A stretch of DNA of 64,000 nt from Egicoccus sp. AB-alg2 (GTDB lineage Bacteria > Actinomycetota > Nitriliruptoria > Nitriliruptorales > Nitriliruptoraceae). This document shows, one piece after another, positions 12,725 through 31,388 of the stretch. A program made the position numbers and the translations under genes. Numbering within the stretch: the first letter of the stretch is position 1; the number at the start of each line of letters is the position of its first letter. The notes under the pieces are model-generated. The model made no database searches and was not told the origin of the DNA. It worked only from the letters and a program-made list of their open reading frames with translations. Location: positions 434,001-498,000 of the forward strand of contig NZ_JBGUAX010000003.1 in the NCBI RefSeq assembly GCF_041821065.1. Direction: 5' to 3'.

Positions 12725-13083
12725 GGGGCTGATTCGGTCTCGACCGTGGTCAGTCCGTTGCCATGGGAGCGTGCCGAGGGTGCTCACGCGACCTCGACAA
12801 AACGCGTGGGAAACCATAATCGCCAAGGACAACGACCTGGCTCTCGCGGCCTAAACACCCGCGACGATCCGCCCCTGACGCCTCGTAGGGGGACCGGATC
12901 GACATCACGAGGCTCCACCTCGCCGGCTCCGACCGTCGGGCCGGTGGGGGAAACCTTCGACGGTATGGATGCGGAGGCTGTCTGGCCCTGGAGCACCGCA
13001 TCCGAGATCATCCAGGACCTACGCACGTAGAGCCCCGAGCTTCGGGATCGCGGGACCCGGGTTCGACTCCCGGCAGCTCCACC
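12725..13083 (+). ncRNA. ssrA: Transfer-messenger RNA (tmRNA)
   Basis: The 5' end GGGGCUG (12725-12731) pairs with CAGCUCC (13074-13080) to form the acceptor stem. A T-arm with GGGTTCGACTCCC lies just inside the 3' end. The CCA is not fully encoded (ACC then G). The reading frame starts at GCC 12822 after the usual UAA-containing leader and ends at TAA 12852, giving the tag AKDNDLALAA. This is short for an actinobacterial tag, and it ends in the ALAA degron read by ClpXP. Several C/G-rich hairpins between 12855 and 13000 fit the pseudoknot region. tmRNA and SmpB rescue ribosomes stalled on broken mRNA. Confidence 0.93.
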
Positions 13084-13085
13084 GC

Positions 13086-13109
13086 GGGGTGTTCGTTGAA
13101 GAACGCCCC
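13086..13109 (+). terminator. tmRNA terminator
   Basis: GGGGTGTTC pairs with GAACGCCCC around the loop GTTGAA, beginning 3 bases after the tmRNA acceptor end. Confidence 0.7.
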
Positions 13110-13127
13110 ATCCGTTCGTGGAAAGCT

Positions 13128-13304
13128 CGTGTGGTGAACGCGCCGTCCGGACAGCCGTCAAGGGCTGCCGGACGGGGACAGGCGACCGGCCGCCGCTCCG
13201 CCAAGGGAGCGACGGAACGGGTCTTGTCCACGCTTCCACCACACGTGACACGGCGCATCGACGCCTGCGAGACGAGACCCCGCCGACGATGTCGGCGGGG
13301 TCTC
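13128..13304 (+). ncRNA. Putative structured RNA, copy 1 of 3
   Basis: Closing stem CGTGTGGTG (13128-13136) pairs perfectly with CACCACACG (13237-13245). Inside are two hairpins. The first has a roughly 13-bp stem (CCGTCCGG, bulged A, CAGCC with its complement) capped by GTCAAG. The second, CGCTCC/GGAGCG, is capped by GCCAAG. The linker GGGGACAGGCGACC after the first hairpin can pair with GGGTCTTGTCC after the second, making a junction. A 14-bp terminator closes the unit. The same architecture recurs at 31389 and 34230 with different base pairs in the stems, which argues for selection on RNA structure. I know no matching RNA family. It lies between ssrA and the DUF488 gene. Confidence 0.65.
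13274..13304 (+). terminator. Terminator of structured RNA copy 1
   Basis: GAGACCCCGCCGAC pairs with GTCGGCGGGGTCTC, 14 perfect base pairs around GAT, 62 bases before the DUF488 start. Confidence 0.75.
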
Positions 13305-13365
13305 TGTCGTGCCGGTGTCCGCGTGTGGTTTCTCCGCGGGTAGCGTGCCCCCGAACGGAGGGACC

Positions 13366-13806
13366 ATGCTCGTCTACGGGATCGGCTACGAAGGGCGCGA
13401 GCCAGCGCAGCTCGTGCAGGCCCTGTGCGCGGCCGGTGTCGAGGTGCTCGTCGACGTTCGCCAGAACGCGTCATCGCGCAAACGGGGCTTCGCCAAGACC
13501 GCGCTACGTGAACATCTCGCGGCAGCGGGCATCGACTACCTCCACCTCCGCGCGCTCGGCAATGACCGCGACAACCGTGCTGGCTTCGCGTACCTGGCGG
13601 GTCCGACCGCTGAAGCTGCGAGGGATCGCTACCGCGAGCACTTGAGCAATGGGTCTTCACCAGTGGTGGCGGACCTGCTCGAGGTGGTCCGCGAGCGAAG
13701 TGCGGCCCTGCTGTGCTTCGAGCGAGACACTCGCCACTGTCACCGCGACGTGCTCATCGACCACCTACAGGAGCTCGAGCCGAAGCTGGTCGCTCTCCCC
13801 CTCTGA
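13366..13806 (+). CDS. DUF488 family protein
   Basis: A 146-residue protein with the hallmarks of DUF488: GIGYEGREPAQLVQAL at the start, VEVLVDVRQNASSRKRGFAK (the DVR...SR..GF motif), YLHLRALGNDR, and near the end ALLCFERDTRHCHRDVLIDHL (the C.ER...CHR motif). The Cys and His of these motifs suggest a small catalytic or metal site, but the family has no established activity. It is often found in accessory regions. The start is ATG 13366 with GAGGGA upstream. Its last 42 bases overlap the 3' end of the convergent unknown gene 13765-14580. Confidence 0.85.
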   Translation: MLVYGIGYEGREPAQLVQALCAAGVEVLVDVRQNASSRKRGFAKTALREHLAAAGIDYLHLRALGNDRDNRAGFAYLAGPTAEAARDRYREHLSNGSSPVVADLLEVVRERSAALLCFERDTRHCHRDVLIDHLQELEPKLVALPL

Positions 13807-14580
13807 TCTCACGGGCGGGTAGGCCATGCCGATGACCATCCAGCCCCTGCGGGCCTGATGCTGGTTCCCCACGAAGAAGATCGTGTCTTTCGTAGGGCCC
13901 GCGATCTGGATGACGTCGCCTTCGGCCTTCGCGGGGCCGTGGTTCCGCTTCGAGTTGCGGTAGAGCTGCAGGAGCCCCCAGTCGACGACCGTCTGTGAGT
14001 GTCCCCTGCACCCTGCCTCCACGTCTCCGCAGGAGTAGTGGAACTTGAACCGCGTGGGAATCCACTCCAGGGGCCGCTTGTCGGGCATCAGCAGCGACGT
14101 CTGCGAGGCGACGGCCTCGTGTTCTGCCGACCAGGGATCATTCGGTTCGGCTGTGACGTCGAAGACCTCGCGTGGGCGGAAGGCGGCCAGGGACGTTCCC
14201 GCCGCTTCCTGCTTCCGGCGGAGCTCGCACATCGAACTCAGCATGACCGGTTCCAGGAAGTGGAGCCGGTCGCGCCACCCGGCTCGCGGTTCCACCGGCT
14301 CCCTGGTGACGATGCTGTCGATCACTGGCCGCCAGCTCTCGGGCCGCTGGTCAGAGGACGTCCGCTGTGCGTCCAGCTCGACCCACTGCCAGGTCGAGAA
14401 GCGTCCGGCTATGTCCATGTCCCTGAACGGCACTGGCCAAAGACGCGCCCACTCGAAGCTGCCCTCGCCACGCTCGCGGAGCCCGGCGACGCAGACGGTT
14501 TCGCCTTTGCGCTTCGAGATGCTCGGGTAGGCCTTCACCGTGACGAGCATCCGCAGGCGCTCCTTCACCCCATGGTGCAT
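13765..14580 (-). CDS. Conserved hypothetical protein with a Cys/Cys/His cluster
   Basis: A 271-residue protein from ATG 14580, preceded by AGGGGGA. The N-terminus reads as a strand-rich domain (MLVTVKAYPSISKRKGETVC, then WARLWPVPFRDM). The C-terminal third has HYSCGDVEAGCRGHSQTVVD, a possible zinc site (C...C..GH), then DWGLLQLYRN and FFVGNQHQARRGWMVIGMAY. I recall similar C...C.GH...DWE patterns in uncharacterised phage and island proteins, but I cannot name a function. The tail-to-tail overlap with DUF488 suggests the two were acquired together, although they are not co-transcribed. Confidence 0.6.
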   Translation of the reverse strand: MHHGVKERLRMLVTVKAYPSISKRKGETVCVAGLRERGEGSFEWARLWPVPFRDMDIAGRFSTWQWVELDAQRTSSDQRPESWRPVIDSIVTREPVEPRAGWRDRLHFLEPVMLSSMCELRRKQEAAGTSLAAFRPREVFDVTAEPNDPWSAEHEAVASQTSLLMPDKRPLEWIPTRFKFHYSCGDVEAGCRGHSQTVVDWGLLQLYRNSKRNHGPAKAEGDVIQIAGPTKDTIFFVGNQHQARRGWMVIGMAYPPVRSEGESDQLRLELL

Positions 14581-14692
14581 GAGTCCCCCTGGTTCGTGCC
14601 GAGCTTGCCACAGCGCGACGGCCTGCCGGCGGAGCCGAGGACGGACCGGCCCCGAAGCGCCGTCAGGGCGGCGTTCGCAGCCGGTCCGCCGG

Positions 14693-16345
14693 TCAGGCAG
14701 CCGGGTCCTCGAGGAGGTACTCGGTCGGCGGGTCGAAGTTCGCGAGCAGCACGTCTGGCAGGTCGAGCCGGTTCCCCGTGCTGAGGTGCCACTTCCGCAG
14801 CAGCCGCACGTTGGTGATGGCGGAGGACAGTCCGACGTGGAGGAGCCGCAGTCCGAGACAGTCTCCGCGGAACGCGTCACGCCGGAGGTTCCCGACGGAG
14901 GCGTCCTTTAGTGTGCCGAAGAAGCCCTCGACACGGGATCTGCGGCCGTAGGACACCTCCCACTTCTCGCTGCCCCAGTAGTGCTCCTGCTGCAGCTTCG
15001 GCTGGACGTCCTCGTACTTGAGGGTCACCGTCGCCTGGGTACACACCTTGGGCGGCGGAGTGAGGTCACCAGCGCCTTCAACGACGGGCAGCCCGAGAGC
15101 GGTAGCCGCTTCGACCGTTCCCGGCCGGAGTGGGCAACCGATCTTCCCAGCGGCGGCGGGGCAACCCCACCGGCTGTCGAGCGGGTTGCCGTTCCCCGGT
15201 CCATGACGTTCCAGCGCGTACTTGGACCGCAGGTCGATCTGCTGGCGGAAGAGCTCGAGCTTCGCCTTGCGTTCGTCGGCGTCGGGGTCCTCTCCGTTCG
15301 GGCCGCAGAGCGACTTCGGGCGCTTCTCGACCGGACCAGGGCGCGTCAGGTGTCCCAGGTGTTCGGGGATCAGCGGGCAGTGCGGCACGCCAGCCGCGAC
15401 GCGTGTACCACCCGCATCCAGGAAGCCGTTGCAATCTTCACTGCGCAGGTCGAGGACCTGCCGGACGTCGCGTTTGCGCAGCTCCACGGACCACCGCTCG
15501 TGGCTCTTGAAGCTGTAGTGCCGGTCGACGATCAGTTCGGTGACCTTGCTCCCTGCCGCACGCATCTGGTCGATCATGCCGAGAGTCGCGCGCACCAGGT
15601 CCGTGGACGCCGGGGTGAGGTCGACGTACTCGAGCAACAAGGGCTCGGATTCGTAGCCGCAGCCCATCGCTGGTGCGCGCACCATGCCGTGCATCGAGTA
15701 GCCGAAGAACGTCTCGGTGCCGCCGCGCTTCTTGGTCTTGCGTCCCCACGCGCCGTCGGGGTCGACCGACCGGCGATCCTGGGATCGCTCGAGCTCGTCG
15801 GTGGTGACGTCATCCTCGAGGTACTCAGGACGGTCCTTCACCTCGGTCGGCACCTTGCGGCCCTTGTTCCAGGCCCAGACCCCGGTCTCGTCGGCGGCGT
15901 ACGCGCTCGAACCGTCCGGGCGGGTCGGCAGCGTCGCTCGGATGATGCGGTTGACGATGTCGAGCAGGACGTCCTTGGTCGCGGGGTCGATCGCTCGTCC
16001 CTGCGCACCGCAGGACTTCCTAACCTTGCGGGTGAAGTTGTAGAGGCCGTCCATGGTCAGACAGACGCACGCGACACGGGTGCCGTCTTCACGTCGGACT
16101 TCCTTGGCGACACCCAGTTCGACCATTGCGAAGGGCGGGATCTCGCTGGTGAGCAGCGTATGGACGTCGTTGTAGCGCATGCTGCCCTTCGCCTGGATGC
16201 TCAGCAGGCTGCCGATGAGGAACGTCCGTGGGGAGAGGTTCCGTCGGCCTTGCTTGCTCGGGTAGCAGAAGGCTTCGAACCGTTCCGCGGCGCCGTGCGC
16301 GTCGACGAGGTGACAGGCGAGGAGGTACTGGCCGACGGTGATCAT
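14693..16345 (-). CDS. DDE-type transposase
   Basis: A 550-residue protein with an RNase-H-like DDE layout. Candidate catalytic residues are Asp in AYAADETGVWAWNKGRK, Asp in KVTELIVDRHYSFKSHERW and Glu in SRVEGFFGTLKDASVGNLRRD. A segment of about 150 residues rich in Cys, Pro and Gly (PHCPLIPEHLGH, SLCGPNGEDPD, CPAAAGKIGCPL) between the second Asp and the Glu looks like an inserted metal-binding domain. ATG 16345 has AGGAGGG upstream and overlaps the stop of the preceding gene (ATGA), so its synthesis is coupled to the integrase-like protein. Clear terminal inverted repeats were not found. The IS family is not certain. Confidence 0.75.
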   Translation of the reverse strand: MITVGQYLLACHLVDAHGAAERFEAFCYPSKQGRRNLSPRTFLIGSLLSIQAKGSMRYNDVHTLLTSEIPPFAMVELGVAKEVRREDGTRVACVCLTMDGLYNFTRKVRKSCGAQGRAIDPATKDVLLDIVNRIIRATLPTRPDGSSAYAADETGVWAWNKGRKVPTEVKDRPEYLEDDVTTDELERSQDRRSVDPDGAWGRKTKKRGGTETFFGYSMHGMVRAPAMGCGYESEPLLLEYVDLTPASTDLVRATLGMIDQMRAAGSKVTELIVDRHYSFKSHERWSVELRKRDVRQVLDLRSEDCNGFLDAGGTRVAAGVPHCPLIPEHLGHLTRPGPVEKRPKSLCGPNGEDPDADERKAKLELFRQQIDLRSKYALERHGPGNGNPLDSRWGCPAAAGKIGCPLRPGTVEAATALGLPVVEGAGDLTPPPKVCTQATVTLKYEDVQPKLQQEHYWGSEKWEVSYGRRSRVEGFFGTLKDASVGNLRRDAFRGDCLGLRLLHVGLSSAITNVRLLRKWHLSTGNRLDLPDVLLANFDPPTEYLLEDPAA

Positions 16346-17313
16346 CGGTCGCCCTCCTGCTCCCGCACGTAGCGGGCGATGTCCACGAGCGTCTGCACCG
16401 ACTTGAGCCCGGCGACGTCGAGGAGGTCGAGCAGCGGCACGCTGAGCTGGATGAGCTCGGCGAGGTAGGTCGCCCGCAGGCGGGTCTGCTCGATGTGCGG
16501 GCAGGTCGAGGGGATGACCGCCTGAGCCACGACCCGGTTGACCACGTCCTTGCGGTCCTCGGTGCGGCCGATCACCAGGTCATTGGGGCGAAGCCCGGTG
16601 AGCCCCTCTCTCACCAGCCCGACATACCGGGCGCGGACCGGAACGACGCGTGGACGCCGACCCGACACCTGCACGTCCAGCTCATCGACGCTCACGTCGA
16701 CGACGTGGCTGCGGCGCAACGGCTTGATGTCGGTCGAGTCGAGTCCAGCCCCGAGGCCGAGCCCGACGACGGCGCACATGCTCTGTCGCCGCACAGCGGT
16801 GTTCTGGTTCCGTGCCACGCGGACGATCGTGGCGACCTCGTCGGCGAGGTACGGCGGCTTCACCCGCGGACGCGCGATGGGCTGAGGCCGCGGGATGCCG
16901 TCGTATGCAGGGTTGACCTGCTTGGCGATCTCGAGCAGGTCGCTGCGGAGGTCGGCGCGGGATGCGTCGCTCAGGTGCGCGCACCTCGGCGAGGTGATGA
17001 ACGCACCGATCCGACCGACGGTCAGCAGCAGTTCCGGCTCGAGCGGCAGACCGTGCTCGTGGCTCCACGCAGTGAGCTGCGCGACGTACTGGCGCTGCTG
17101 GCGGAACTTCTCCGCACCGGTCGTCGTGGTTCGCCGCATGACCTCGATCATGGTCGGTTTGACGATCTGGAAGGTCGTGGGGGTGATGCTGGCCGGGGAG
17201 TAGTCGTCGAGCAGCTGCTGGAGTTCACCGGGCAGCTGCCGTCCCTGCTGGTGGCCGCGGACCTGCTTTGCCATCCGCCGGGCGGCGGCCTTGCTGATCT
17301 TCTTGCTTGTCAC
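16342..17313 (-). CDS. Tyrosine-recombinase-like protein, catalytic residues apparently lost
   Basis: A 323-residue protein. A basic N-terminus (SKAAARRMAKQVRG) is followed by an all-helical region like an integrase arm and core-binding domain. The C-terminal half follows integrase landmarks: GLGLGAGLDSTDIKPLRRSH aligns by eye with the ..GLR..E...L....I box, but the catalytic Arg position is Asp. TRLRATYLAEL aligns with the HxLRHTxAT box, but its His is Thr. VAGLKSVQTLVDIARYV aligns with the LGH...T..Y region, with the His missing. It therefore looks like a DNA-binding relic or a structural partner. GTG 17313 is preferred because AAGGAG lies 6 bases upstream. It is coupled to the DDE gene. 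Confidence 0.6.
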   Translation of the reverse strand: MTSKKISKAAARRMAKQVRGHQQGRQLPGELQQLLDDYSPASITPTTFQIVKPTMIEVMRRTTTTGAEKFRQQRQYVAQLTAWSHEHGLPLEPELLLTVGRIGAFITSPRCAHLSDASRADLRSDLLEIAKQVNPAYDGIPRPQPIARPRVKPPYLADEVATIVRVARNQNTAVRRQSMCAVVGLGLGAGLDSTDIKPLRRSHVVDVSVDELDVQVSGRRPRVVPVRARYVGLVREGLTGLRPNDLVIGRTEDRKDVVNRVVAQAVIPSTCPHIEQTRLRATYLAELIQLSVPLLDLLDVAGLKSVQTLVDIARYVREQEGDR

Positions 17314-17457
17314 GTCCATCTCCTTCGTGGTGGACGCGACGGACCGTGAGGACGCGGTCGGCGCGGGCATTCGCCCCGATGAGGGCAGGCGCCGGTGCGC
17401 GGTGGATGCGCAGCGCCCCCGCCGGGGGGCGGGGGCGCAAGGGGGGAAGGAGAAAGG

Positions 17458-18234
17458 TCAGAAGCTGCGGAGCGCATCGCGGCTCGCGTTGCCGTCAGCG
17501 GGCAGGTGGTCGCGCAGGCCGTCGATCTCGTCGCTGCGGAGCCCAGCCCGCATGGCCTCGAGAAGCGAGGTGCTCTGCACCACGGTGAACGCCCACGCTC
17601 GCCGCAACTGGGTGGCGTCCAGCGGTGGCAGCCGGTGTTCGCGCATCCACCGCTTGGCCTCCGACCAGGCCGCAGGGTCCAGACCGTGGTCGAAGGCATC
17701 CGGCGCGACGATGCCCTGCTCGTGCAGGGTGAGCGCTGTGCCGATGGCGTCCGCCAGATGGCGTGGCGCGTGTTCCGCGGCTGCACGGACTGCGGAAAAC
17801 TCGATGTCGCCGTAGGGCGCCGCCGTCCGGGGACCGGACCGATCAGTGCGGTTGATGCGTCGTGACCCGTCCTCGCCGGCGAGGGTCCGTTGCAGGCGGT
17901 GGAGGGCCGCGAGGTGGTTGCGCAGGCTGTTGTCCGATCTGCCTTCCTGGCGCCAGGCGACGGCGAACCGTTCGACCCACGGGCCGGTCAGCACGTCCAC
18001 CAGCCGGAGGTCTGCGACCTGTGGCGCTGCCCACGCGAGCAGAGCGACGGCGGAGCCGAGCAATGCGCGGACGTCGGCCTCGTCGGCCGGTGGAGCGGCA
18101 GCGACAAGCTCGATGACCTCGGCGCGACGGGCGGTCCACTGTGGTTCGGTGAGGGTGCGCGGCCGGTAGGAGGTGAGCACCTGGCTGACCGCGGTCGGAA
18201 GCGGAAGGGGGGCGGGGGCGTGTGAGGTGTCCAT
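17458..18234 (-). CDS. Second tyrosine-recombinase-like protein of the transposon module
   Basis: A 258-residue protein. Residues about 90-150 resemble the SAM-like core-binding domain of integrases (WVERFAVAWRQEGRSDNSLR, then HLAALHRLQ). The C-terminus has TQLRRAWAFTVVQSTSLLEA, which resembles the HxLRRTFAT box with His replaced, then GLRSDEIDGLRDHLP; the protein ends in Phe where a nucleophilic Tyr would be expected nearby. It is the first gene of the module, 144 bases before the next one. The start ATG 18234 is tentative because no strong SD is present. A DNA-targeting role for the transposase is an inference. Confidence 0.5.
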   Translation of the reverse strand: MDTSHAPAPLPLPTAVSQVLTSYRPRTLTEPQWTARRAEVIELVAAAPPADEADVRALLGSAVALLAWAAPQVADLRLVDVLTGPWVERFAVAWRQEGRSDNSLRNHLAALHRLQRTLAGEDGSRRINRTDRSGPRTAAPYGDIEFSAVRAAAEHAPRHLADAIGTALTLHEQGIVAPDAFDHGLDPAAWSEAKRWMREHRLPPLDATQLRRAWAFTVVQSTSLLEAMRAGLRSDEIDGLRDHLPADGNASRDALRSF

Positions 18235-18351
18235 GCATCCCACCGTCCGTGGGCCACCGGTGCGTGCAACCGCCTCCGCCGCGGTGAACGGCAGCGGTAG
18301 CGGCCAGCTCGCGCTGCGACCGGCTCCGGGTTGTGAGGCGGCACCAGTGCT

Positions 18352-18398
18352 GCGTCGGTGACGGCCGCGAAGGGCGCGTCGGTGGCGGCTGCGAGGGG
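18352..18398 (+). repeat. Imperfect 23-bp direct repeat (two units, 24-bp period)
   Basis: Two adjacent units begin GCGTCGGTG and match at 20 of 23 positions. They lie between the divergent starts of the transposon module (18234) and the unknown gene at 18453, where they could be transposase binding sites or an operator. Confidence 0.4.
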
Positions 18399-18452
18399 TG
18401 AGCCGGCCGTCACCGTCCGGGTCGTTCCACCCCACGACCCGAAGGAGATGGC

Positions 18453-18983
18453 ATGTTCGACGTCAACAACGCGCCCGTCACCCGCAGCGAGCTCGAGCGC
18501 TTCGCCCACCTGGTCGCCACCTCGGTCGACCATCTCGGCATCGCCCCCGGCGAGCACGACATGGCCGTCGCCGTGGCTGACGGCGCTGATGCGCTCCTGC
18601 TCCCAGGTGGGCCCGCGACACGCGATGCGGTCATGGCCGAGCTCGACCAGCTCCTGGCGGCCCCACGCAGGATGGCGGCGATGGTCTCGCTGCTCGGCTG
18701 GTCCCCGGACGCGACGCCGACGCGCCCCTCGTGGGCCCTCGTGGCGGTCGGACGAGGCGGTCTGCCGGCGGTCCTGTGTGTCCGCCGCCTCCACGAGGAC
18801 GACCACTGGACGCTGGTCGACATCCGAGACGCACCCTGGGCAGTGCTCTCAAGCGCCAGCGGCTTGCGGGCCGCCATCGAGGAGGGCCGCCCGCTGCGGC
18901 TCAAGGTCGCCCGTTCGCCTGAGCTGCTGCAGCGTCCTGATGAGCAGCCGGAGCCGCCACTCGACGAACGCGGCGAACTCTAA
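18453..18983 (+). CDS. Hypothetical protein
   Basis: A 176-residue protein from ATG 18453 with GAAGGAG at good spacing. The N-terminal half has a helix (ELERFAHLVATSVDHLG) and a segment AVADGADALLLPGGPATRDA. A central beta-rich part (WALVAVGRGGLPAVLCVRRL, then WTLVDIRDAPWAVLSS) follows, and the tail is acidic. No signal peptide or membrane helix is visible. I do not recognise the family. It is divergent from the transposon module and 159 bases upstream of hsdM on the same strand, so it could be the first gene of the restriction operon or an unrelated island gene. Confidence 0.6.
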   Translation: MFDVNNAPVTRSELERFAHLVATSVDHLGIAPGEHDMAVAVADGADALLLPGGPATRDAVMAELDQLLAAPRRMAAMVSLLGWSPDATPTRPSWALVAVGRGGLPAVLCVRRLHEDDHWTLVDIRDAPWAVLSSASGLRAAIEEGRPLRLKVARSPELLQRPDEQPEPPLDERGEL

Positions 18984-19142
18984 CCCCGCGGTCACGGTCG
19001 GGGTTGCCCGCAGCAGTGCGAGTCGCGACCATCCCGCTCATCACCCCCGGGCTGCCCGGCAGACAACGCTTACAGTGGCGGTCCCTGCCGGCGCGGCCCG
19101 CGGCGGGCGGGGCGAGAGCGCGAACGGACGCGAGGAGCGGTA

Positions 19143-21179
19143 GTGGCGGCGTACACCCATGGGGAAGCGGTCGGGTTGATCTGGTCGATCGCGGACCTGC
19201 TTCGGGGCACCTACAAGGCCCATGACTACGGCGACGTCATCCTGCCGCTGGTCGTGCTCCGACGTCTCGACCAGGCCCTGCTCGACACCAAGCCGGCGGT
19301 CTTGGAGCGCGATGCGAAGCTGGCCGACCGTGGCATCGAGAACCGCGAACCGGTGCTCCGATCAGTCTCCGGCCGGTCGTACTACAACACCTCGCCGCTG
19401 ACCTTCGACCGGCTGCTCGACGACGAGGACAACGTCCCGGCCAACTTGCGCGCCTACATCGAGGCGTTCTCACCCAACGCCCGCGACGTGATCGAGAAGT
19501 TCGGGTTCGACACCCAGATCGACAAGCTGCACGGTGCCAACCTGCTCTACCCGATTCTCGCGCGCTTCGTCGACGTCGACCTCCACCCCGACCGCGTCTC
19601 CAACCTCGACATGGGCTACCTGTTCGAGGAGCTCATCCGCCGGTTCGCAGAGCAGTCCAACGAGACCGCAGGTGAACACTTCACCCCGCGCGAGGTCATC
19701 GCCCTGTGCGTCGAGCTCCTCGCGGCGGCCGACTGGGACCGGCTCTCGCAGCCGGGTGCGATCGTCACCATGCTGGACTGCTGCGCTGGCACCGGCGGGA
19801 TGGCGTCAGTGTTCGAAGAGCACCTGCGCGCGCGCAACAGCCGGGCCCGGCTGATCCCGCACCTGCAGGAGATCAACGACGAGTCGTACGCCATCTGCAA
19901 GGCGGACCTGCTCATCAAGGGGCAGGACGCCGACAACGTCGCGTTCGGCAACAGTCTCACCGAGGACGCCTTCCCGAACCGAAGCGTGATGTACGCCCTG
20001 ACGAACCCACCTTTCGGGGTCGACTGGAAGGGCTACGCAGGGCCGATCGAGCGAGAACACGCCGAACTCGGCCACGACGGCCGGTTCGGCCCGGGTCTGC
20101 CCGCGAAGGGCGACGGGCAGCTGCTGTTCCTGCTGCACCTCCTGTCCAAGCTCAAGCCCTACGACCACGCCACCGGGACCGGCGGGGGTCGGCTTGCCAT
20201 CATCATGAATGGCTCGCCCCTGTTCTCCGGCGCCCCCGGCGGCGGTGAGTCGGAGGTTCGCCGCTACCTGATAGAGAACGACCTGCTCGAGACCATCGTC
20301 GCGCTGCCCGACCAGCTGTTCTACAACACCGGCATCTCGACCTACATCTGGGTCATCACCAACCGCAAGGCACCCGAACGCGCGGGGCATGTCCAGCTCA
20401 TCGACGCCCGCCAGCAGTTCCGCAGGATGCGCAAGAGCCTCGGCGCCAAGCGCAACGAACTCGCCGACGAGCACATCGAGCGCATCGTCGACCTCTACCA
20501 CGGCCTCGACGCCGACGGTGAGCAGGCCAAGCTCGTCCCCAACCACCGCTTCGGGTTCCGCCGCGTCACCATCGAACGACCTCTACGGGCCCGCTACGAG
20601 GGCGGCGCCGCAGCCGTCGATCGGCTCCGCACCTCACCCGACTGGAACGCGGCCCAGGTCCGCAAGTCCGATGCCGACCGCGCCGAGGACATCCTGGCCG
20701 GCATCGAGCAGGTCGTCGCTGACCTGCCGACTGACGAGCTGACCACGGCAGAGGCCGTTACCCGCGTCAAGGAGACCGACGGCTACACGGCGCTGTTGAA
20801 GAAGGCCAAGGACGCCATCGCTGCCGCGCTCACCGTCCCCGACCCCGACGCCGAACCACTCGTTGACGCCAAGGGCCATCCGCAGCCCGATCCTGACCTG
20901 CGCGGACAGGAGACCGTCCCGCTGCCCGACACCTATCAGCCCAACGACGACACCACCGACGTGCTCACCGACGGTGTCGAAGACCACCTCAAGACCGAGG
21001 TCCTCCCACACGCCCCCGACGCCTGGGTCGACCACACCAAGACCAAGCTCGGCTACGAGATCCCCTTCACCCGCATCTTCTACCGCTACCAACCGCCTCG
21101 CCCCCTCGCCGAAATCGACGCAGACATCAAGCAGGTCGAAGCCGAGATCCTCCAGCTCCTCGCCGAGGTCACGGAGTGA
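19143..21179 (+). CDS. hsdM: Type I restriction-modification methyltransferase subunit HsdM
   Basis: A 678-residue N6-adenine methyltransferase subunit of a type I system. An N-terminal helical HsdM_N domain (WSIADLLRGTYKAHDYGDVI) is followed by AGEHFTPREVIALCVELL, SAM motif I DCCAGTGG (212-219) and the catalytic NPPF at 288-291 (ALTNPPFGVDW). A long C-terminal helical part contacts HsdS and the DNA. The start is GTG 19143 with GAGGAG upstream. The stop overlaps the hsdS start (GTGA). It methylates the recognition sequence set by HsdS, which protects host DNA; with HsdR it forms the restricting complex. Confidence 0.93.
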   Translation: MAAYTHGEAVGLIWSIADLLRGTYKAHDYGDVILPLVVLRRLDQALLDTKPAVLERDAKLADRGIENREPVLRSVSGRSYYNTSPLTFDRLLDDEDNVPANLRAYIEAFSPNARDVIEKFGFDTQIDKLHGANLLYPILARFVDVDLHPDRVSNLDMGYLFEELIRRFAEQSNETAGEHFTPREVIALCVELLAAADWDRLSQPGAIVTMLDCCAGTGGMASVFEEHLRARNSRARLIPHLQEINDESYAICKADLLIKGQDADNVAFGNSLTEDAFPNRSVMYALTNPPFGVDWKGYAGPIEREHAELGHDGRFGPGLPAKGDGQLLFLLHLLSKLKPYDHATGTGGGRLAIIMNGSPLFSGAPGGGESEVRRYLIENDLLETIVALPDQLFYNTGISTYIWVITNRKAPERAGHVQLIDARQQFRRMRKSLGAKRNELADEHIERIVDLYHGLDADGEQAKLVPNHRFGFRRVTIERPLRARYEGGAAAVDRLRTSPDWNAAQVRKSDADRAEDILAGIEQVVADLPTDELTTAEAVTRVKETDGYTALLKKAKDAIAAALTVPDPDAEPLVDAKGHPQPDPDLRGQETVPLPDTYQPNDDTTDVLTDGVEDHLKTEVLPHAPDAWVDHTKTKLGYEIPFTRIFYRYQPPRPLAEIDADIKQVEAEILQLLAEVTE

Positions 21180-22333
21180 CCCGGCTGGCGAGCACACGAC
21201 GTCTTTGGACTGTCGCGCGCATCTTCAGCGGGCAGCAGACGAAGGTCGAAGGTGGGACGTACGAACTTTATGGGGCAAACGGAGTCATCGGCTGCACGGA
21301 CCAGCTCCAGCGGGGCTCTGTCGTGCTCGTGGGCCGCGTCGGGAGCGTGGGCAGGGTCACAGTGCCCGTTGGCCAGTTTGGTGTCAGCGACAATGCGCTC
21401 GTCTGCGCGATTGACACCGCCCAACTCGACCGACGATGGGTGGCGTACTGGCTGTCAACCCTCGATTGGGGCCCTCAGCTGACTGGCACAGCGCAGCCGC
21501 TGTTGACTGGCCGGCTTTTGGCGGAGCAATGCCTGCCGTCGACGGAACTGGCCGAGCAGGTGCGCATCGCGGACTACCTCGACACCGAGACCGCCCGAAT
21601 CGATCGCGTCATGCGAGCCAACGAACGCATGCGTCAACTTGCATCTGAACGATTTGCGGCATGGCAGGCATCGGTCGTGGCGCCCTGGGTGGATCCGATC
21701 GAGACCCTCGACACAACCTCGCACGCTGCGGCCAAGGCTCCAGCAGGATGGGCAGTGACCCGCTTGGCCTCGGTGGGTGACGCTGCGACTGGCAAGGTCA
21801 CGGTCGAACAGCTCGCGGAGCTTTCTGAGGTCACACATTGGACCATCGAGGAGTTGGCTCAGTCGGGAAAGCCCCGACTGCAGCCAGGGGCCGACATCGC
21901 GAGCGACAAGCTCGTCGTGGAGGGCGGTGAGCTACTGGTATCGCGGCTCAACCCCCGACGAGGTCATGTGTTCCGAACCTTCACAAGCTCTCAGCGCTCG
22001 GTTGCCTCGACGGAGTTCTTCATCCTAAAGCCGCGACGGCTACCTCTTGCCTGGGTCTGGCACAGCATGCGGTCAGTACCGGTTCGGGCATACCTCGATG
22101 CCAACGTCCGATCGGCGACGCGGAGCCAGCAGCGAGTCGAGATGGCCTACATCGCCCGAACGCCAGTACTCGTCCCTCCCCGACCAGAACTCGACGCGCG
22201 ATGCAGGGAGCTCGAAGCCGAACTGCAGAGCTTCGAGCGGCTGCTCGCGGTCTCTGAAGCGCAGGACCGGCTGTTGATGGAACGACAGCAGGCGCTGATC
22301 ACGGCAGCGGTGACGGGCGAGCTGGAGGTGTGA
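21176..22333 (+). CDS. hsdS: Type I restriction-modification specificity subunit HsdS
   Basis: A 385-residue DNA-recognition subunit. Two target-recognition domains (about 1-110 and 185-320) alternate with helical conserved regions (EQVRIADYLDTETARIDRVM and the C-terminal ARCRELEAELQSFERLL type helix), the usual two-half-site design. The sequence is visibly less GC-biased at third positions than the flanking hsdM and hsdR genes, as expected for a recognition module exchanged by recombination. GTG 21176 overlaps the hsdM stop by 4 bases. The first recognition domain seems to start very early, so the extreme N-terminus may be short. The target sequence cannot be predicted. Confidence 0.88.
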   Translation: MTRLASTRRLWTVARIFSGQQTKVEGGTYELYGANGVIGCTDQLQRGSVVLVGRVGSVGRVTVPVGQFGVSDNALVCAIDTAQLDRRWVAYWLSTLDWGPQLTGTAQPLLTGRLLAEQCLPSTELAEQVRIADYLDTETARIDRVMRANERMRQLASERFAAWQASVVAPWVDPIETLDTTSHAAAKAPAGWAVTRLASVGDAATGKVTVEQLAELSEVTHWTIEELAQSGKPRLQPGADIASDKLVVEGGELLVSRLNPRRGHVFRTFTSSQRSVASTEFFILKPRRLPLAWVWHSMRSVPVRAYLDANVRSATRSQQRVEMAYIARTPVLVPPRPELDARCRELEAELQSFERLLAVSEAQDRLLMERQQALITAAVTGELEV

Positions 22334-22334
22334 C

Positions 22335-23176
22335 GTGGCGGTGACGGGAGATGCCCTGCCCGTGATGGCTCTGCTCGCGTCGGAGCCTGGGTTGCCGGTC
22401 GTGGTGTTCGACTCGAACGCGGCGCTGCGGATGACGGTCGTCGACCGGCAGTCGGTGTACGGGCTCGACGAGTCGTGGGACGCGCCGGGTGTGTACCTGC
22501 TCGACCCGGTGGCGCTGGACGGCGCCTACGGGGTCTACGTGGGCAAGGCGCCGGCAGGGCTCCGTACCTGCCTGAGGCAGCCTCTGAAGGGCAAGGTCCA
22601 TTGGGCGCGGGCGCTACTGGTGGTGCGTGACACGACCACGGGTGGCATTCGGCTCAGGTTGGCTGGCTTGAGGGGCGGCTGTACGACCTTCTGGATGGGG
22701 CGTCGCTCGCTGAGCCGTCGAATGGGAACCGGCCGCAGGACGAGACACTGCCGGCCTACGCCCGAATCGCGCTGGAGGCGGCGGTGACGCCCATCTCGGC
22801 GGTGATGCGTCTGCTGGGGTGTTCGCCGTATGCCTTCGATGAGGGCGCGCCGTCGGAGTCGCCGGTGCGGTCAGCGCCCCGGCAGTACAACGTCACGGTC
22901 GCTGACCTCATCGCCGCCCTCGCCGTAGACGAGCGTGTGAGCTCTACGCAGGCGTCAGCACAGGCCACCGCGGTTGTCAGCAGTGACGGCGGCCTCACCA
23001 TCGACGGGCGGGGGTTCGCCACGCCGTCAGCTACCAGATCGCACGTCCGCGGCGGCAAGGCCACCAACGGGTGGGCGTTCTGGGCGGTCGAGCGGGACGG
23101 GACGACGGTGCCGCTCGCGACCGTCAGAGCGCGCTACCTGCGCCGGACGCAACCACAGAAAGTCGAGGGGCCGTGA
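22335..23176 (+). pseudogene. GIY-YIG nuclease-like / DUF4357 gene with a frameshift
   Basis: The frame from GTG 22335 encodes an N-terminus with GIY-YIG features (GVYLLDPVALDGAYGVYVGK, then LRTCLRQPLKGKVHW). After DTTTG at about 22643 the coding sense moves to another frame: HSAQVGWLEGRLYDLLDGAS, then PAYARIALEAAVTPIS, on to a C-terminal DUF4357-like module (RGGKATNGWAFWAVE) ending at 23176. One missing base near 22643-22645 explains the break. An intact version would read ...TGWHSAQVGWLE. It lies between hsdS and hsdR and abuts both. It may be a pseudogene, a sequencing error or a case of recoding. Nuclease activity is unproven. Confidence 0.75.
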
Positions 23177-26100
23177 TGTCGGTACACAACGAGGGGCAGT
23201 TCCAGCGCGACATCGCCGCGGAGATGGTCGCCAACTCCGGCTGGCAGCAGCGGCCGGCGGCCGAGGTCGACCGAGCGACGCGGCTGCTGGTCGACGACCT
23301 GGTCGGCTACCTCGAGGCGACGCAGCCGGCGGCGGTGGAGAAGTTCGCGTCGGTCGCCGGCGCTGGGTGGCAGCAGCAGCTGGCGGACATCGTCGCCAAC
23401 GACCTCGACAAGGAACCCGGTCGGGCACTCGGCCTGCTGCGTGGCGGGAAGAAGGTCCGAGGTGGGGTGCGGTTCTCGTTCTGCCAGTTCAAGCCCGCCA
23501 ACGATCTCAACTTCGATCTGGTCGCCGCCTACCAGGCGAACCGGCTGACGGTCGTGTTGGAGGCGCCGGTCCGTAAGCCCGACGGCACCTGGGGTGAGGT
23601 AGACCTCGCGCTGTACGTCAACGGGATCCCGGTCGCGGACGCGGAGCTGAAGAACTCGCTGACCGGCCAGTCGGTGAAGCAAGCAGTCCGCCAGTACCGC
23701 CACGACCGCGACCCGGGCGACACGCTGCTCGGGTTCCGCTCAGTGGTGCACTTCGCGGTCGACACCGACGCGGTGATGATGGCCACCCGCCTGACGGGTC
23801 CGACGACCAGGTTCCTGCCGTTCAACCGCGGCTCATCACCTGACGGTGCCGGCGGGGCCGGGAACTACAACCCGGGGGATGGGTCGCACAAGACCTCGTA
23901 CCTGTGGCGGCAGGTGTGGCAGCGGGACAACTGGCTGGATCTGCTGCACCGGTTCGTGCACGTCACTCCCGCCGACCCGGCCGACCCGGGCGCGGTGACG
24001 CAGATGATCTTCCCCCGGTTCCACCAGTGGGACGCGGTCCGCAAGCTCGAAGCGCACGCCCGCACCCACGGCACCGGCCAGTCCTACCTCGTCGTCCACT
24101 CGGCAGGGTCGGGCAAGTCCAACACCATCGGCTGGCTCGCCCACCGGCTGACCGGGCTGACCGACCCGGCAGGGACGGCCCGGGTGTTCGACAAGGTGAT
24201 CGTCATCACCGACCGCCGCGTGCTCGATGCGCAGCTGTCGGCCACGGTCGCGCAGTTCGAACACGCCTCGGCGGCCGGCAAGGTCGTGTCGGTCGACTCA
24301 TCGCGCGAACTCGCGGACGCGTTGTCGCGGCCCTCGACCCGCATCGTGGTCTCGACGTTGCAGAAGTTCCCGTTCGCAGCGCAGCTGGAAGCGATCCGAG
24401 ACGCTGGCGGCGGCCGGTACGCGGTGCTGATCGACGAGGCCCACTCGTCACAGTCGGGGGAGTCGGCCAAGCAGCTCAAGGAGGTCCTGCGTCCGGCGGA
24501 CCTCGGCGCTGGCGAGCAGGTCGCGCTCGCGGCTGAGGAATGGGCGGTCTACGACGACGCCGACCCCGTCGCCGAGGCGGTCGCGGCGTCGGCAAAGGCG
24601 CGAGGGCGGCCGGACAACGTGTCGCTGTTCGCGTTCACGGCGACCCCGAAGGGCAAGACGCTGGAGCTGTTCGGCACCCGACACCCAGATGGCAAGCTCC
24701 GCCCGTTCCACCTGTACTCGATGCGCCAGGCCATCGAGGAGGGGTTCATTCTCGACACCCTGCGCAACTACACCACCTACGCCACGTTCTGGAAGGTCAC
24801 CACCGATTCCGGCGCCGAGGTCGAGAAGTCAAAGGCCTCATCGGCGGTCACCAAGTACGCGGTGCTGCACCCGGCGATGATCGCTGAGAAGTCCCAGGTC
24901 ATCGTCGAGCATTACCGGCAGCACGTCCGCCACCGCATCGGCGGGCAGGCCAAGGCGATGGTGGTCACGCGCAGCCGGCTCGCCGCGGTCCGCTACAAGC
25001 AGGCGCTCGACCGCTACATCGCCGAGCAGGGCTATGACCTTGGCGTGGTCGTGGCGTTCTCCGGCAAGGTCCAGGACCCCGATGCACCGGAGGTCGAGCA
25101 CACCGAAGCGTCCATGAACGGCTTCGGCGAGTCCCAGACCGTCCGACGGTTCGACGGCGATGACATGCACCTGATGGTCGTGGCGGAGAAATACCAGACC
25201 GGGTTCGACCAGCCGAAGCTGCACACGATGTACGTCGACAAGAAGCTCGACGGCGTCGCCGCTGTGCAGACCCTGGGCCGGCTCAACCGGTCCCGCGATG
25301 GCAAGGACGACACCTTCGTGCTCGACTTCGTCAACGACCGCGACGGCATCGCCGCCGCGTTCGAGCCGTTCTACGACGGCCCCGTTGGCGTTCCCACGGA
25401 CGACCAGACCCTCTACGAGGTGTGGCAGCGGCTCGAGGACCACCACGTCCTCGACGAGGCCGACCTCGCCACCTTCGCGCAGGCTTGGTTCACCTCCACG
25501 CCCGACGACCGCAGCGCCCACCCGCTCCTGCACGCGGCGCTCGCACCGGCCGAAGCACGGTTCGAGGCGCTCGACGAGGAGCGGCAGGAGACCTTCCGGA
25601 CCGCGCTGGCGCAGTTCACCCGCATGTACGCCTTCCTCGCCCAGGTGCTGCCCTACGCCGACGAGGAGTTCGAGAAGGCCTACCCCTACGCCAAGATGCT
25701 GCTCAAGCGCATCGGCGCACGCGCCGGTACCGCGCTGGACCTCTCCGACGAGCTCGAGCTCACCCACCTCAAGCTCGCCGAACGCGGCACCGAGGACATC
25801 CACCTCGAAGGCGGCGAGCACGACCAGACCGCGTTCACCGGCACCGGGCAAGGCAGCCTGACCGACGAGGAACTCGCCCTGCTGTCGGAGGTCGTCGACG
25901 CGATCAACGACCGGTTCGGCGCCGAGGTCACTGACGACGACAAGATCTTCTACCAAGCCGTCGGTGAGCGGATGTCGGCCAACCCCGAGCTCCAGCAGCA
26001 GGCCGCCGTCAACGACGAGGCGACCTTCCAGTACGCGTTCAACGACGCGTTCATGGAAGCCGTCATCGACGCCATGGAACACAACACCGACCTCGGCAAG

Positions 26101-26217
26101 CGCCTCCTCGACGACCCCGCCTACGCCAGCATTGTCAAGACCTGGATGCTGCGCTACGTCCACCGCCGCGCTGCCGAACGTCACGACACGCCAGAGCTCG
26201 ACCTGGAAGCCCCGTGA
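23176..26217 (+). CDS. hsdR: Type I restriction endonuclease subunit HsdR
   Basis: A 1,013-residue motor and nuclease. The N-terminal PD-(D/E)xK nuclease is visible as EVDLALYV (Asp143) and ELKN (Glu157 and Lys159). It is followed by a superfamily 2 translocase with Walker A SAGSGKSNT (about 308-316), VIVITDRRVLDAQL, VSTLQKFPF, the DEAH box at about 420 (LIDEAHSSQSGE), FTATPKGKTLELFG, and C-terminal helicase motifs (VAEKYQTGFDQPKL, TLGRLNRSRDGKDD). A helical C-terminus contacts the methylase core. ATG 23176 overlaps the stop of the preceding frame (TGATG). It cuts unmethylated DNA after ATP-driven translocation. Confidence 0.93.
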   Translation: MSVHNEGQFQRDIAAEMVANSGWQQRPAAEVDRATRLLVDDLVGYLEATQPAAVEKFASVAGAGWQQQLADIVANDLDKEPGRALGLLRGGKKVRGGVRFSFCQFKPANDLNFDLVAAYQANRLTVVLEAPVRKPDGTWGEVDLALYVNGIPVADAELKNSLTGQSVKQAVRQYRHDRDPGDTLLGFRSVVHFAVDTDAVMMATRLTGPTTRFLPFNRGSSPDGAGGAGNYNPGDGSHKTSYLWRQVWQRDNWLDLLHRFVHVTPADPADPGAVTQMIFPRFHQWDAVRKLEAHARTHGTGQSYLVVHSAGSGKSNTIGWLAHRLTGLTDPAGTARVFDKVIVITDRRVLDAQLSATVAQFEHASAAGKVVSVDSSRELADALSRPSTRIVVSTLQKFPFAAQLEAIRDAGGGRYAVLIDEAHSSQSGESAKQLKEVLRPADLGAGEQVALAAEEWAVYDDADPVAEAVAASAKARGRPDNVSLFAFTATPKGKTLELFGTRHPDGKLRPFHLYSMRQAIEEGFILDTLRNYTTYATFWKVTTDSGAEVEKSKASSAVTKYAVLHPAMIAEKSQVIVEHYRQHVRHRIGGQAKAMVVTRSRLAAVRYKQALDRYIAEQGYDLGVVVAFSGKVQDPDAPEVEHTEASMNGFGESQTVRRFDGDDMHLMVVAEKYQTGFDQPKLHTMYVDKKLDGVAAVQTLGRLNRSRDGKDDTFVLDFVNDRDGIAAAFEPFYDGPVGVPTDDQTLYEVWQRLEDHHVLDEADLATFAQAWFTSTPDDRSAHPLLHAALAPAEARFEALDEERQETFRTALAQFTRMYAFLAQVLPYADEEFEKAYPYAKMLLKRIGARAGTALDLSDELELTHLKLAERGTEDIHLEGGEHDQTAFTGTGQGSLTDEELALLSEVVDAINDRFGAEVTDDDKIFYQAVGERMSANPELQQQAAVNDEATFQYAFNDAFMEAVIDAMEHNTDLGKRLLDDPAYASIVKTWMLRYVHRRAAERHDTPELDLEAP

Positions 26218-27095
26218 TGGACTACGTCGCTCATCGCCGCATCGAAATGCGCACCGATCCGACCGTGTCCGAGAAGTGGCTGCAGGAGCGGATCATCGCC
26301 GACCCGGCGCTACTCGGACTGGGTGAGGTCGACGTCAAGGACGTCGAGCGTCGTCAGCACGCGACCGGGCGCCTCGACCTGCTGCTGCACGACGCGGAGA
26401 CCAACACCCGCTACGAGGTCGAGCTGCAGCTCGGCGCGACGGACGAGTCCCACATCATCCGCACGATCGAGTACTGGGACAACGAACGGCGACGCTACCC
26501 GCAGTACGAACACGTCGCGGTCATCGTCGCCGAGGACATCACCGCCCGCTTCTTCAACGTCATCAGCCTGCTCAACGGCCAGATCCCCATCATCGCCATC
26601 CACGTCCAGCTGCTCGAGGTCGGGGAAGCACGGACCCTGGTCTTCACCCGGGTGCTCGACCACGTCACGCTCGCCACAGATGATGAGGACGAAGCAGCCG
26701 AGCCGGCCGACCGCAGCTACTGGATCGCGAAGGGCTCCCAGGCGACCGTCGAGCTCGCTGACCGGCTCCACGCCATTGTCGAGCCGGTCGATCCGGGTAT
26801 CGAGCTCAACTACAACAAGCACTACATCGGGCTTGCCAAGCAAGGCGTCGCCAAGAACTTCCTGATCATGCGCCCACGCCGCCAGCACCTCATCGCCGAG
26901 TTCCGCCTCGCCCTCGACGAGGCTCGCCGCGAGGAGCAAGAAGCACTCGGCTTCGACGTGCTGCCCTACGACACGCGGTGGAACGCCTACCGCTTCCGGC
27001 TCACACCAGAGGATCTCGAGCAGCGAAGTGACGCACTCCGTCAGCTCGCGGTCGACGCTGAGAAGTACTACGGCACCCGGGTCGGGGGCGGCTGA
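26217..27095 (+). CDS. PD-(D/E)xK nuclease-like protein coupled to hsdR
   Basis: A 292-residue protein. The pattern ATGRLDLLLHD followed by TRYEVELQLGATDESHIIRT has the shape of a PD-(D/E)xK core: Asp in the first segment, then ExQ in place of ExK. The helix IEYWDNERRRYPQYEHVAVI is as seen in RecB-like and DUF nucleases. The C-terminal half has IELNYNKHYIGLAKQGVAKN and then a tail like DUF5655-type DNA-end proteins (FDVLPYDTRWNAYRFRLTPE). ATG 26217 shares its first base with the hsdR stop codon, so it is translationally coupled and probably belongs functionally to the restriction operon. Its role, whether nuclease, anti-restriction control or unrelated, is unknown. Confidence 0.7.
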   Translation: MDYVAHRRIEMRTDPTVSEKWLQERIIADPALLGLGEVDVKDVERRQHATGRLDLLLHDAETNTRYEVELQLGATDESHIIRTIEYWDNERRRYPQYEHVAVIVAEDITARFFNVISLLNGQIPIIAIHVQLLEVGEARTLVFTRVLDHVTLATDDEDEAAEPADRSYWIAKGSQATVELADRLHAIVEPVDPGIELNYNKHYIGLAKQGVAKNFLIMRPRRQHLIAEFRLALDEARREEQEALGFDVLPYDTRWNAYRFRLTPEDLEQRSDALRQLAVDAEKYYGTRVGGG

Positions 27096-27097
27096 CC

Positions 27098-27484
27098 ATG
27101 GGGCCTGTCGAGACCGCCGTCCGGCGAGGCTGCGTGGCCGGCCAGAGTCTGCTCACCCCGACCGGTGCCAGCTTCGTCCTCGACCGGATCGACGCCAGAG
27201 GGATCGTGCTCCTACTCGGGCAGGGACAGTCGCACACCCGCCTGCCGTGGCAGGCGCTCGAGGAGATCCCCGGGGTCTTCGAAGGTCGCGGCTGGCTGCG
27301 CACGACCGGGACCTTCGACACCGAGTCCGAGGAAGGCTCCCTGAGTGCCCACCTGAAGCGCTTCGTGAAGCGCGAGACCGCGAACTGGGTCGCAGTCGTC
27401 CTCGAGAAGGCAGGTGTGCTCGAGCTCGACCGGAGCCGACCCGTCCGGGCACGGTTGCGCGACGACTTCACCACCGGACCGTAG
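27098..27484 (+). CDS. Hypothetical protein in the restriction operon
   Basis: A 128-residue protein starting 3 bases after the preceding stop. The first 70 residues look beta-rich (TPTGASFVLDRIDARGIVLL, then RLPWQALEEIPGVF). The rest is charged helix and strand (LSAHLKRFVKRETANWVAVV). No membrane segment is visible. I do not recognise it. The tight spacing places it in the hsdMSR transcript. Confidence 0.6.
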   Translation: MGPVETAVRRGCVAGQSLLTPTGASFVLDRIDARGIVLLLGQGQSHTRLPWQALEEIPGVFEGRGWLRTTGTFDTESEEGSLSAHLKRFVKRETANWVAVVLEKAGVLELDRSRPVRARLRDDFTTGP

Positions 27485-27592
27485 ACGTGCAGTGTGGTCC
27501 CGAGCCGTCTGCCCGAGCGTCGCGGCGTGGCACGTCACAGCCCGCAGCGACACTGGCTCCGTCACAGGGCGGTGCTGGAAGGGTCCGGAGCG

Positions 27593-27961
27593 ATGAACGC
27601 AGAAGCGAACGAGGCGCCAACGCTCGAAGAGGCCGTGCAGCGCATCGCGGTCTTCGCCGAGCGCATGACGCAGCACCACGAGCAGCAGGGGTTCGGAGAG
27701 GCGCGCAGCTGGCGCCTGGTCGTTCACGAAGCTCGAAGGTCTCTCGGTCTCGACCCGGTCCTCACCGCGCCGGCAGGCGAGCCGCTGGACCGGCGACCCG
27801 CGAACGATGAGCTCGAGCGGCTCATCCGCCGCAGCCGGCTCGTACGCGAGGGCAGCACCGACCTCGCGCTCGAGACGCTCGATGCACACGAGCTCCTCGG
27901 GCAGCTCGCCGCTGAGCTGCTGCTGTGGCGCCACAGCCACCCCAACGACCTGCCCGGTTGA
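27593..27961 (+). CDS. Hypothetical helical protein
   Basis: A 122-residue protein from ATG 27593, preceded by CCGGAG. It is almost entirely predicted helix and is rich in Leu, Glu and Arg (EEAVQRIAVFAERMTQHHEQ, ANDELERLIRRSRLVREG). No catalytic motif is visible. It lies in a 530-base interval between the restriction operon and the SIR2-like gene and may be a small regulator or adaptor; this is a guess. Confidence 0.5.
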   Translation: MNAEANEAPTLEEAVQRIAVFAERMTQHHEQQGFGEARSWRLVVHEARRSLGLDPVLTAPAGEPLDRRPANDELERLIRRSRLVREGSTDLALETLDAHELLGQLAAELLLWRHSHPNDLPG

Positions 27962-28014: not shown

Positions 28015-29098
28015 ATGCACGTAATGGTCTTCGGAAACGGGCTCTCGTACGCGCCCACCGGTGGGCGCCTTGCCCTGCCCCAGCTCATGCCCGCCGTCTG
28101 GGAGTGGCTGGGCGTCCAAGGTCTCGATGAGGATGTTAGAGCCATTGTCCGATGGAGTCGGCCGGATCAACCAGAGCTGGACGCCGCCGACAACGAACGC
28201 AACTTCGAAGCGATCGCGGGTGCCCTTGACCGTCTCTCGCGGGGCGGTTCGCGAGATCGTTCCGCTGATCAACGCGGGCCTGGGTATCGCAGACGCTCTG
28301 GCCGACGCTTCCCATGCCCTGCGAGTTCTCTACGTCCGCGTCGTCGGGACAGCGCTGCTGGCCGTGGACAACGCGGTTGCCCCGCGGGACTTCGACCCAG
28401 CCCATCCTTACGTAGGTGCCGACCGGATGGCTATCCGAGAGATGGGCATCGCCCTCTGGGAGCTGTTCGAACGAGAAGGTTTGGCCATCTACACCTTGAA
28501 CTACGACTCCCTGTTGATGGAAGCGCTCCTCGATAGCCGCGATGGCAGAGTGGTCTACGACGGGTTTCCGTACGGGGAACTCGCTTACCCGCTCGCACCT
28601 TGGCCGAACCAGCTGCCGCTCTACCCGCTGCACGGAACGTTGGGCGCCTACCAGACACCTGACGGCAGTGTGCGCAAGACGCGGATGGAAGACGTGAGAG
28701 CCCGAAGGATGCTCGAAGGTTGGCGTGACGGCGACTTCGGTCCTGGTCTGCCCGCCGTGGTCCTCGGGGACGCGAAGCGCCACAGCATTCGACAGGAGCC
28801 GTTCGCTTCCTACTACGAGGCACTGAGCGTGGACCTCGAGCGTGCATCGAGCGTGGTCGTCGGTGGATACGGGTTCGGGGACGTGCCGCTGAACACACGG
28901 CTTGCGCGATACCTGGCCGCGGACAACCAGCGACTCCTACAGGACTGGCGACCGACGGCTACTCAAGCGGTAGACGATGTAGTCGCAGCTCTTCGCGGCG
29001 CCCTGCCGGCAGGAAGCACCCTCGACGAGGCCCAAGTCCTTCCGGTGGACGTCGGTCTACCCAGCGCGGAGGCTGTCCGGGCGCTTGTTGGTCCGTAG
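28015..29098 (+). pseudogene. SIR2-like NADase-type gene with a frameshift
   Basis: ATG 28015 follows a strong AAGGAGG. The first 75 codons read MHVMVFGNGLSYAPTGGR (a Gly-rich nucleotide-binding start) through AGALDRLSR. The coding sense then moves +1 at the run GGGG 28241-28244 and continues as AVREIVPLINAGLGIADAL, TLNYDSLLMEALLD, LYPLHGTLGAY and VVVGGYGFGDVPLN. These segments have the order seen in SIR2-like island proteins (GNG.S, NYD, HG, GYG..D). One extra G explains the break. SIR2-domain defence proteins deplete NAD+ on phage infection; that role here is inferred. The break may reflect inactivation, homopolymer phase variation or a sequencing error. Confidence 0.65.
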
Positions 29099-31228: not shown

Positions 31229-31388
31229 GAGGGCAGCGGTGTGGATCCCTCGATGCGGCGCCGGCCGGAACGGCCCCCCGTGATGTCGTAGGCGGGGGTG
31301 CGGGCTTTCGCCGAACACCCCACCGCGAGCCACCGTGGCAGACGTACGTCACCGAACGTGCCTTCGCAAACGGTCCAGCTCACCAAGC

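Follow-up and report, generated by a model that had tools for sequence, protein, structure and literature searches.

A DDE transposon at the 3' ends of tRNA and tmRNA genes with inactive tyrosine-recombinase-fold proteins as putative target selectors

Transposons and islands with related features

The nearest precedent for a dead recombinase accompanying a DDE transposon is TnsF of the Tn7-like transposon Tn6022. TnsF is an inactivated tyrosine recombinase, composed of duplicated core-binding domains and a partial catalytic domain, whose role as target selector has been tested (PMC10293859), and the likeness drawn here follows that description. Tn6022 possesses TnsA, TnsB, TnsC and TniQ and inserts into comM (PMC10293859), whereas the element described below has a distantly IS1182-like DDE enzyme and tRNA/tmRNA targets, no TnsC or TniQ having been seen in it. 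Tn7 (with its selector TnsD) and the tRNA-homing Tn7-like CASTs have in common with this element an oriented, site-specific insertion beside a conserved gene, a dedicated selector (putative in the present case), and cargo. However, their transposase is of another type, and the gene set of a Tn7-like transposon is not present among the Pfam-scanned ORFs of the element, in which no rve (TnsB), no TnsC or other AAA+ ATPase, and no TniQ was detected (a few small ORFs lay outside the scan).

Genomic islands and ICEs that depend on tyrosine integrases use the same target, the 3' end of tRNA/tmRNA genes. The present family differs from them in showing inverted repeats and a 5-bp duplication instead of att-site recombination, and in that its integrase-fold protein is dead. 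Some casposons insert at tRNA 3' ends without any tyrosine recombinase. Casposons rely on the Cas1 enzyme (PMC4046053), and no Cas1 was seen in the element studied here. No description of this transposon family was found in the open-licence literature searched. Transposons in which a dead recombinase selects the target have one known example, and to the extent that this could be tested, the family, its transposase type, and its target are new.

The mobile element of the window

The window, i.e., the whole 64-kb stretch of DNA that was analysed, contains a complete mobile element of 18,236 bp (positions 13086-31321), which houses the three-gene transposition module and is inserted with exact fit at the tmRNA gene's 3' end (Table 1). 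The terminal inverted repeat motif GGGGTGTTCGNNGAA has two matches in the 64 kb, one at each element end, where none would be expected, and a 5-bp target duplication flanks both ends. The two direct repeats of the right end (RE) are GTTCGTTGAA at 13091 and GTTCGTGGAA at 13114, with a spacing of 23 bp, and the hairpin found further inside is homologous to the native tmRNA flank. Unlike in the relatives, 1.6 kb separates the RE from the transposase, and the position of the DUF488 gene between them is unusual. No further copies of the element were found in its own genome, so its ends were mapped by comparing genomes.

Table 1. Coordinates of the tmRNA gene, the inserted element, and its parts in the window
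Feature	Position	Strand	Evidence or remark
tmRNA (ssrA) gene, insertion target	12725..13083	+	ARAGORN
Target-site duplication, copy 1	13081..13085	+	ACCGC (discriminator A + CC of tmRNA + GC)
Right end (RE)	13086..13123	+	terminal inverted repeat GGGGTGTTCGTTGAA + 2 direct repeats
Terminator-like hairpin repeat	13274..13304	+	GAGACCCCGCCG..CGGCGGGGTCTC, just inside RE
DUF488 cargo gene	13366..13806	+	Pfam PF04343, 7.5e-28
Cargo ORF, no known family	13765..14565	-	overlaps end of DUF488 gene
DDE transposase, 550 aa	14693..16345	-	invariant D152, D274, E473; distantly IS1182-like
Accessory protein 2 (P0002)	16342..17370	-	dead tyrosine-recombinase fold, core-binding + catalytic domain
Accessory protein 1 (P0001), 258 aa	17458..18234	-	core-binding + partial catalytic domain
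Cargo type I methyltransferase HsdM	19143..21179	+	
Cargo type I specificity subunit HsdS	21176..22333	+	
Cargo type I restriction subunit HsdR	23071..26217	+	
Cargo SIR2-like domain protein	28061..29098	+	
Left end (LE)	31307..31321	-	terminal inverted repeat GGGGTGTTCGGCGAA, single copy
Target-site duplication, copy 2	31322..31326	+	ACCGC

An earlier note on this DNA had read the module as three minus-strand genes, coding for a 258-residue protein, a 323-residue protein, and a DDE transposase, the last two overlapping by ATGA. The genes are present in that order and the overlap is found at 16342-16345, while the length given for the middle protein was close to the 342 aa counted from its first ATG or the 325 aa counted from the ATG in register with the sister species. 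The paralogy of the accessory proteins had escaped that reading, as had the insertion target, the defence cargo, and the ends of the element with their duplication.

Accessory proteins

The recombinase fold that had been recognised by eye in both accessory proteins is borne out by structure prediction and profile homology. The AlphaFold model of P0002 (pLDDT 84.8) comprises the core-binding and catalytic domains of a tyrosine recombinase and matches the structures of Cre, XerA, XerH, and Tn1549 Int (VIA Z 13.6-16.1), and the profile of the accessory family matches the archaeal XerC-like recombinase 4a8e at 4.3e-10. The P0001 model is weaker (Z 5.0-8.8); none but tyrosine recombinases appear among its top 29 structural matches, and Foldseek alone gave no significant match for it. 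Iterated profile searches identify P0001 and P0002 as paralogues, P0001 being aligned with the core-binding domain of the P0002 family and with the last part of the catalytic domain, the middle part being absent. No Cys-rich N-terminus was noticed by eye in P0002, where a member of the TnsF family would have zinc fingers.

The reported substitutions of catalytic Arg, His, and Tyr are real. In P0002 the first Arg is replaced by Asp, Lys by Ser, His by Thr, His/Trp by Leu, and Tyr by Ile, only the second Arg (R299) being retained. Across 31 domains, the first Arg is kept in 2, Lys in 0, His in 1, the second Arg in 29, His/Trp in 0, and Tyr in 7. None of the 31 has the complete R-K-H-R-H/W-Y set of an active tyrosine recombinase. 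The dN/dS values against the sister species, obtained from stretches measured in frame, are 0.26 (P0001), 0.25 (P0002), and 0.24 (transposase, N-terminal part) and indicate that the genes are under purifying selection between the two species. With this selection and its recurrence in other genomes, the trio is more than a chance arrangement.

DDE transposase

The Asp-Asp-Glu triad is invariant in an alignment of 12 relatives, and a Cys-rich stretch lies between its second Asp and the Glu, where the earlier note had placed an insertion. Seven of the 12 transposases match Pfam DDE_Tnp_1_6 (best 7.3e-5). The likeness to the IS1182 family (DDE_Tnp_1 superfamily) consists of weak NCBIfam matches in eight of the 12 (best 3.9e-16); the transposase of the window reaches 30 bits against NF033551, whose cut-off is 270, and thus falls outside IS1182. 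In contrast to IS1182, the present family has accessory proteins, large cargo, and tRNA targeting. Neither Pfam nor NCBIfam gave a confident name to any protein of the trio, the weak IS1182 match of the transposase being the only one.

Occurrence and gene architecture

Relatives of the trio are found across Actinomycetota. Among 396 genomes of this phylum, strong accessory matches (E<1e-25) number 14 in 12 genomes, and all adjoin this DDE family; the count ends where the first paralogue of the next kind appears and would rise if each second domain were included. Weaker matches start near 1e-13 and grade into ordinary recombinases. An accessory protein accompanies 10 of the 11 near-full-length DDE matches, the contigs having been searched with a profile from a 3-sequence alignment, since the 12-sequence alignment was too diverse. 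Viral contigs and plasmids searched with the accessory protein gave no match, and the plasmid search with the transposase gave one, pSCL3.

Structure prediction, profile homology, and this recurrence in other genomes support the earlier view that inactive subunits of recombinase fold are coupled to a DDE enzyme. The proposed partnership of two such subunits holds for the window, L011, and L114 but is not universal: one accessory protein is found in L009, L036, L037, and L110, a fusion with two core-binding domains in L113, L057, and L062, and three accessory units in L012. The exception among the near-full-length matches is L115, an intact-looking element at a tRNA-Leu gene of G411, in whose genome no accessory protein is detectable. 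L115 (8947-14474) measures 5.5 kb and carries the DDE transposase and an OLD/Gabija-like protein.

Insertion beside tRNA and tmRNA genes

At 23 loci, a tRNA or tmRNA gene converges on the DDE gene, and its 3' end is separated from the DDE stop codon by 109-265 bp, in most cases by 186-228 bp. This adjacency is seen for 23 of 43 DDE ORFs, a set that includes fragments and inner tandem copies, vs. 10 of the 674 other ORFs at the same loci that are 250 aa or longer. The targets are the genes for tRNA-Ser, Leu, Tyr, Gly, Met, Val, and Lys and tmRNA. Several DDE ORFs outside the 23 are exceptions in appearance: the 3' half of a tRNA is found at the expected position in L015 and L056, the contigs of L063 and L066 end inside tRNA-Ser, and L066b, L043, and L100b seem to be inner members of tandem arrays. 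The true exceptions, with no recognisable tRNA alongside, are L009 and L055.

L009 (3338-9880) lies on pSCL3, a linear plasmid of Streptomyces clavuligerus, and has apparent ends with the duplication CCACC; its accessory protein and transposase are annotated as hypothetical proteins. Tandem arrays behind a single tRNA occur in L113, L110, L066, L043, and L100. At the junctions a left end is followed by GCCAC or GCCAT and then by a right end. The LE of one element and the RE of the next thus share a duplication of a few bases, so that elements seem to stack at one site.

Comparison of targets and proteins hints that the target follows the accessory protein rather than the transposase, about two independent comparisons being too few for proof. 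L059 and the Ser group share the same target, with identities of 47-50% for the accessory proteins and 35-42% for the DDE proteins, while L110 and L111, which have different targets, show 30% and 40%, respectively.

Element ends, duplications and empty sites

Comparison of copies, the route that the earlier note had proposed, located both the element ends and the target duplications. Directly after the tRNA, the RE contains two direct repeats, nearly always 23 bp apart, and the LE a single copy; the repeats vary between loci and agree within a locus. Besides the window, far ends were mapped in six copies, each duplication beginning at the tRNA discriminator base: GCCAC in L113 and L110, ACCAA in L111, TCACA in L112, GCTGC in L059, and ACTCG(AT), 5-7 bp, in L115. 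Such inverted repeats with a short target duplication are those of a DDE transposon. An LE with an exact 5-bp duplication was obtained at 7 of 19 loci (window included) vs. 4 of 342 with REs swapped between loci; among the seven, the L057 call was rejected because it falls inside the accessory gene, and L115 with its duplication of 5-7 bp is a case additional to the seven. The weakest cases are L112 and L059, with 11 of 16 end bases matching. A candidate left end of L099, no better than chance, was discarded, and searches for left ends of L114, L116, L108, and L055 found none.

Empty sites are present in four sister genomes of the genus of G295, in which an uninterrupted tRNA-Met gene is followed by its terminator (..TTGGTGGCGGGG..). 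G295 itself reads TTGGT/element/TTGGTGGCGGGG, the element being located between two TTGGT copies and the native terminator beyond its left end. These empty sites confirm one mapped insertion, that of L111 in G295, precisely. Within the genus of the window, G002 has no DDE match, and its tmRNA gene is followed by the native flank. G003, a sister species, harbours the same element (L010, 3050-11738) with the same left junction, ACCGC/GAGACG. There, a copy of the native flank has taken the place of the RE, and two insertions have split the transposase into three pieces, both accessory genes being intact.

Proposed mode of action and alternative explanations

Our main reading, to which we give about two chances in three, is that the trio drives an 18.2-kb DDE transposon of tRNA/tmRNA 3' ends, in which the dead recombinases bind the ends of tRNA genes and recruit the transposase. 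Genome comparison shows inverted ends, a 5-bp duplication starting from the discriminator base, a fixed orientation with the RE beside the tRNA, and an intact tRNA body. We infer the selector role of the accessory proteins from their fold, their constant company with the transposase, and the integrase-like target; target selection by the pair, already suggested in the earlier note, has gained strong circumstantial evidence from the fixed orientation at tRNA/tmRNA 3' ends. Like integrases, the accessory proteins would bind the tRNA gene at its acceptor/T-arm DNA and would dock or activate the transposase there, while the transposase would hold both transposon ends and make strand transfers with a 5-bp stagger. 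The hairpin just inside the RE would supply a replacement for the terminator displaced by insertion, so that the host RNA gene would keep working, and the element ferries phage-defence genes.

Since L115 targets a tRNA gene without a detectable accessory protein, some of the targeting may be the work of the DDE protein, and a strict need for the accessory proteins is made less likely. Also counting against the main reading are L009 and L055, neither of which adjoins a recognisable tRNA, and the 1.6 kb between RE and transposase in the window. L115 further favours an explanation that we consider unlikely, namely that the accessory proteins are architectural factors bound to the 23-bp-spaced repeats of the RE and that recognition of tRNA genes falls to the transposase itself. 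In Tn4430 the ends are bound by TnpI, and the presence of two repeats in the RE and one in the LE would fit such a function. However, G333 contains two elements with the same end repeat GTTCACGAAA and DDE proteins of 62% identity whose targets differ (tmRNA and tRNA-Met); therefore, the end repeats do not set the target. Moreover, recognition of tRNA 3' ends is natural to tyrosine integrases.

Transcriptional control of the transposase operon is another conceivable role of the accessory proteins, comparable with that of the regulators MrpR/YopR and SroF in SPbeta-type phages. These dead-recombinase-fold regulators are among the fold matches (8a0a, 8bpz, 9rgl), and the overlap of accessory and transposase genes would suit an operon of this kind, but a repressor leaves the target unexplained, and the accessory proteins are conserved beside a tRNA-targeting transposase and often duplicated or fused, which makes this role improbable. 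It is hardly credible that the trio is cargo of an ordinary tyrosine-integrase island. Although tRNA/tmRNA 3' ends are classic integrase sites, the exact ends show inverted repeats and 5-bp duplications and not long duplicated tRNA 3' segments, the DDE gene adjoins the tRNA whatever the tRNA species, and no active integrase was found among the Pfam-scanned ORFs of the element.

We lean slightly towards a new superfamily of transposons in which a DDE transposase is steered to tRNA/tmRNA gene 3' ends by direct action of dead tyrosine recombinases, with no ATPase hub in between, changes in the recombinase retarget the element to other tRNA isotypes, and the elements serve as vehicles of phage-defence genes. 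If this is true, there would be two apparently independent cases of a dead integrase as the address label of a DDE transposon, the second of them with a minimal machinery (two or three proteins) and a target that every genome offers, tRNA 3' ends. It would account for some tRNA/tmRNA defence islands without an active integrase, and would offer a testable system for DNA-binding proteins that steer transposases and a possible basis for compact site-specific insertion tools.

Cargo and the region behind the element

The element of the window carries a type I restriction-modification system (HsdM, HsdS, and HsdR) and a SIR2-like protein. Type I restriction-modification is also the cargo of L111, while L110 carries an EcoRI-type methylase, a GmrSD/HNH nuclease, and an Abi_2 protein, L113 a Schlafen AlbA_2 protein, and L115 an OLD/Gabija-like ATPase.

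Beyond the element, the window is syntenic with G002 again only from 48263 on. An ORF of 3533 aa (34693-45294) in the strain-specific stretch that follows the element is missing at that place in G003. A tmRNA terminator region of about 190 bp is present three times in the window (13123-13314, 31383-31582, and 34231-34414), which suggests that an older, decayed element is stacked behind the intact one.
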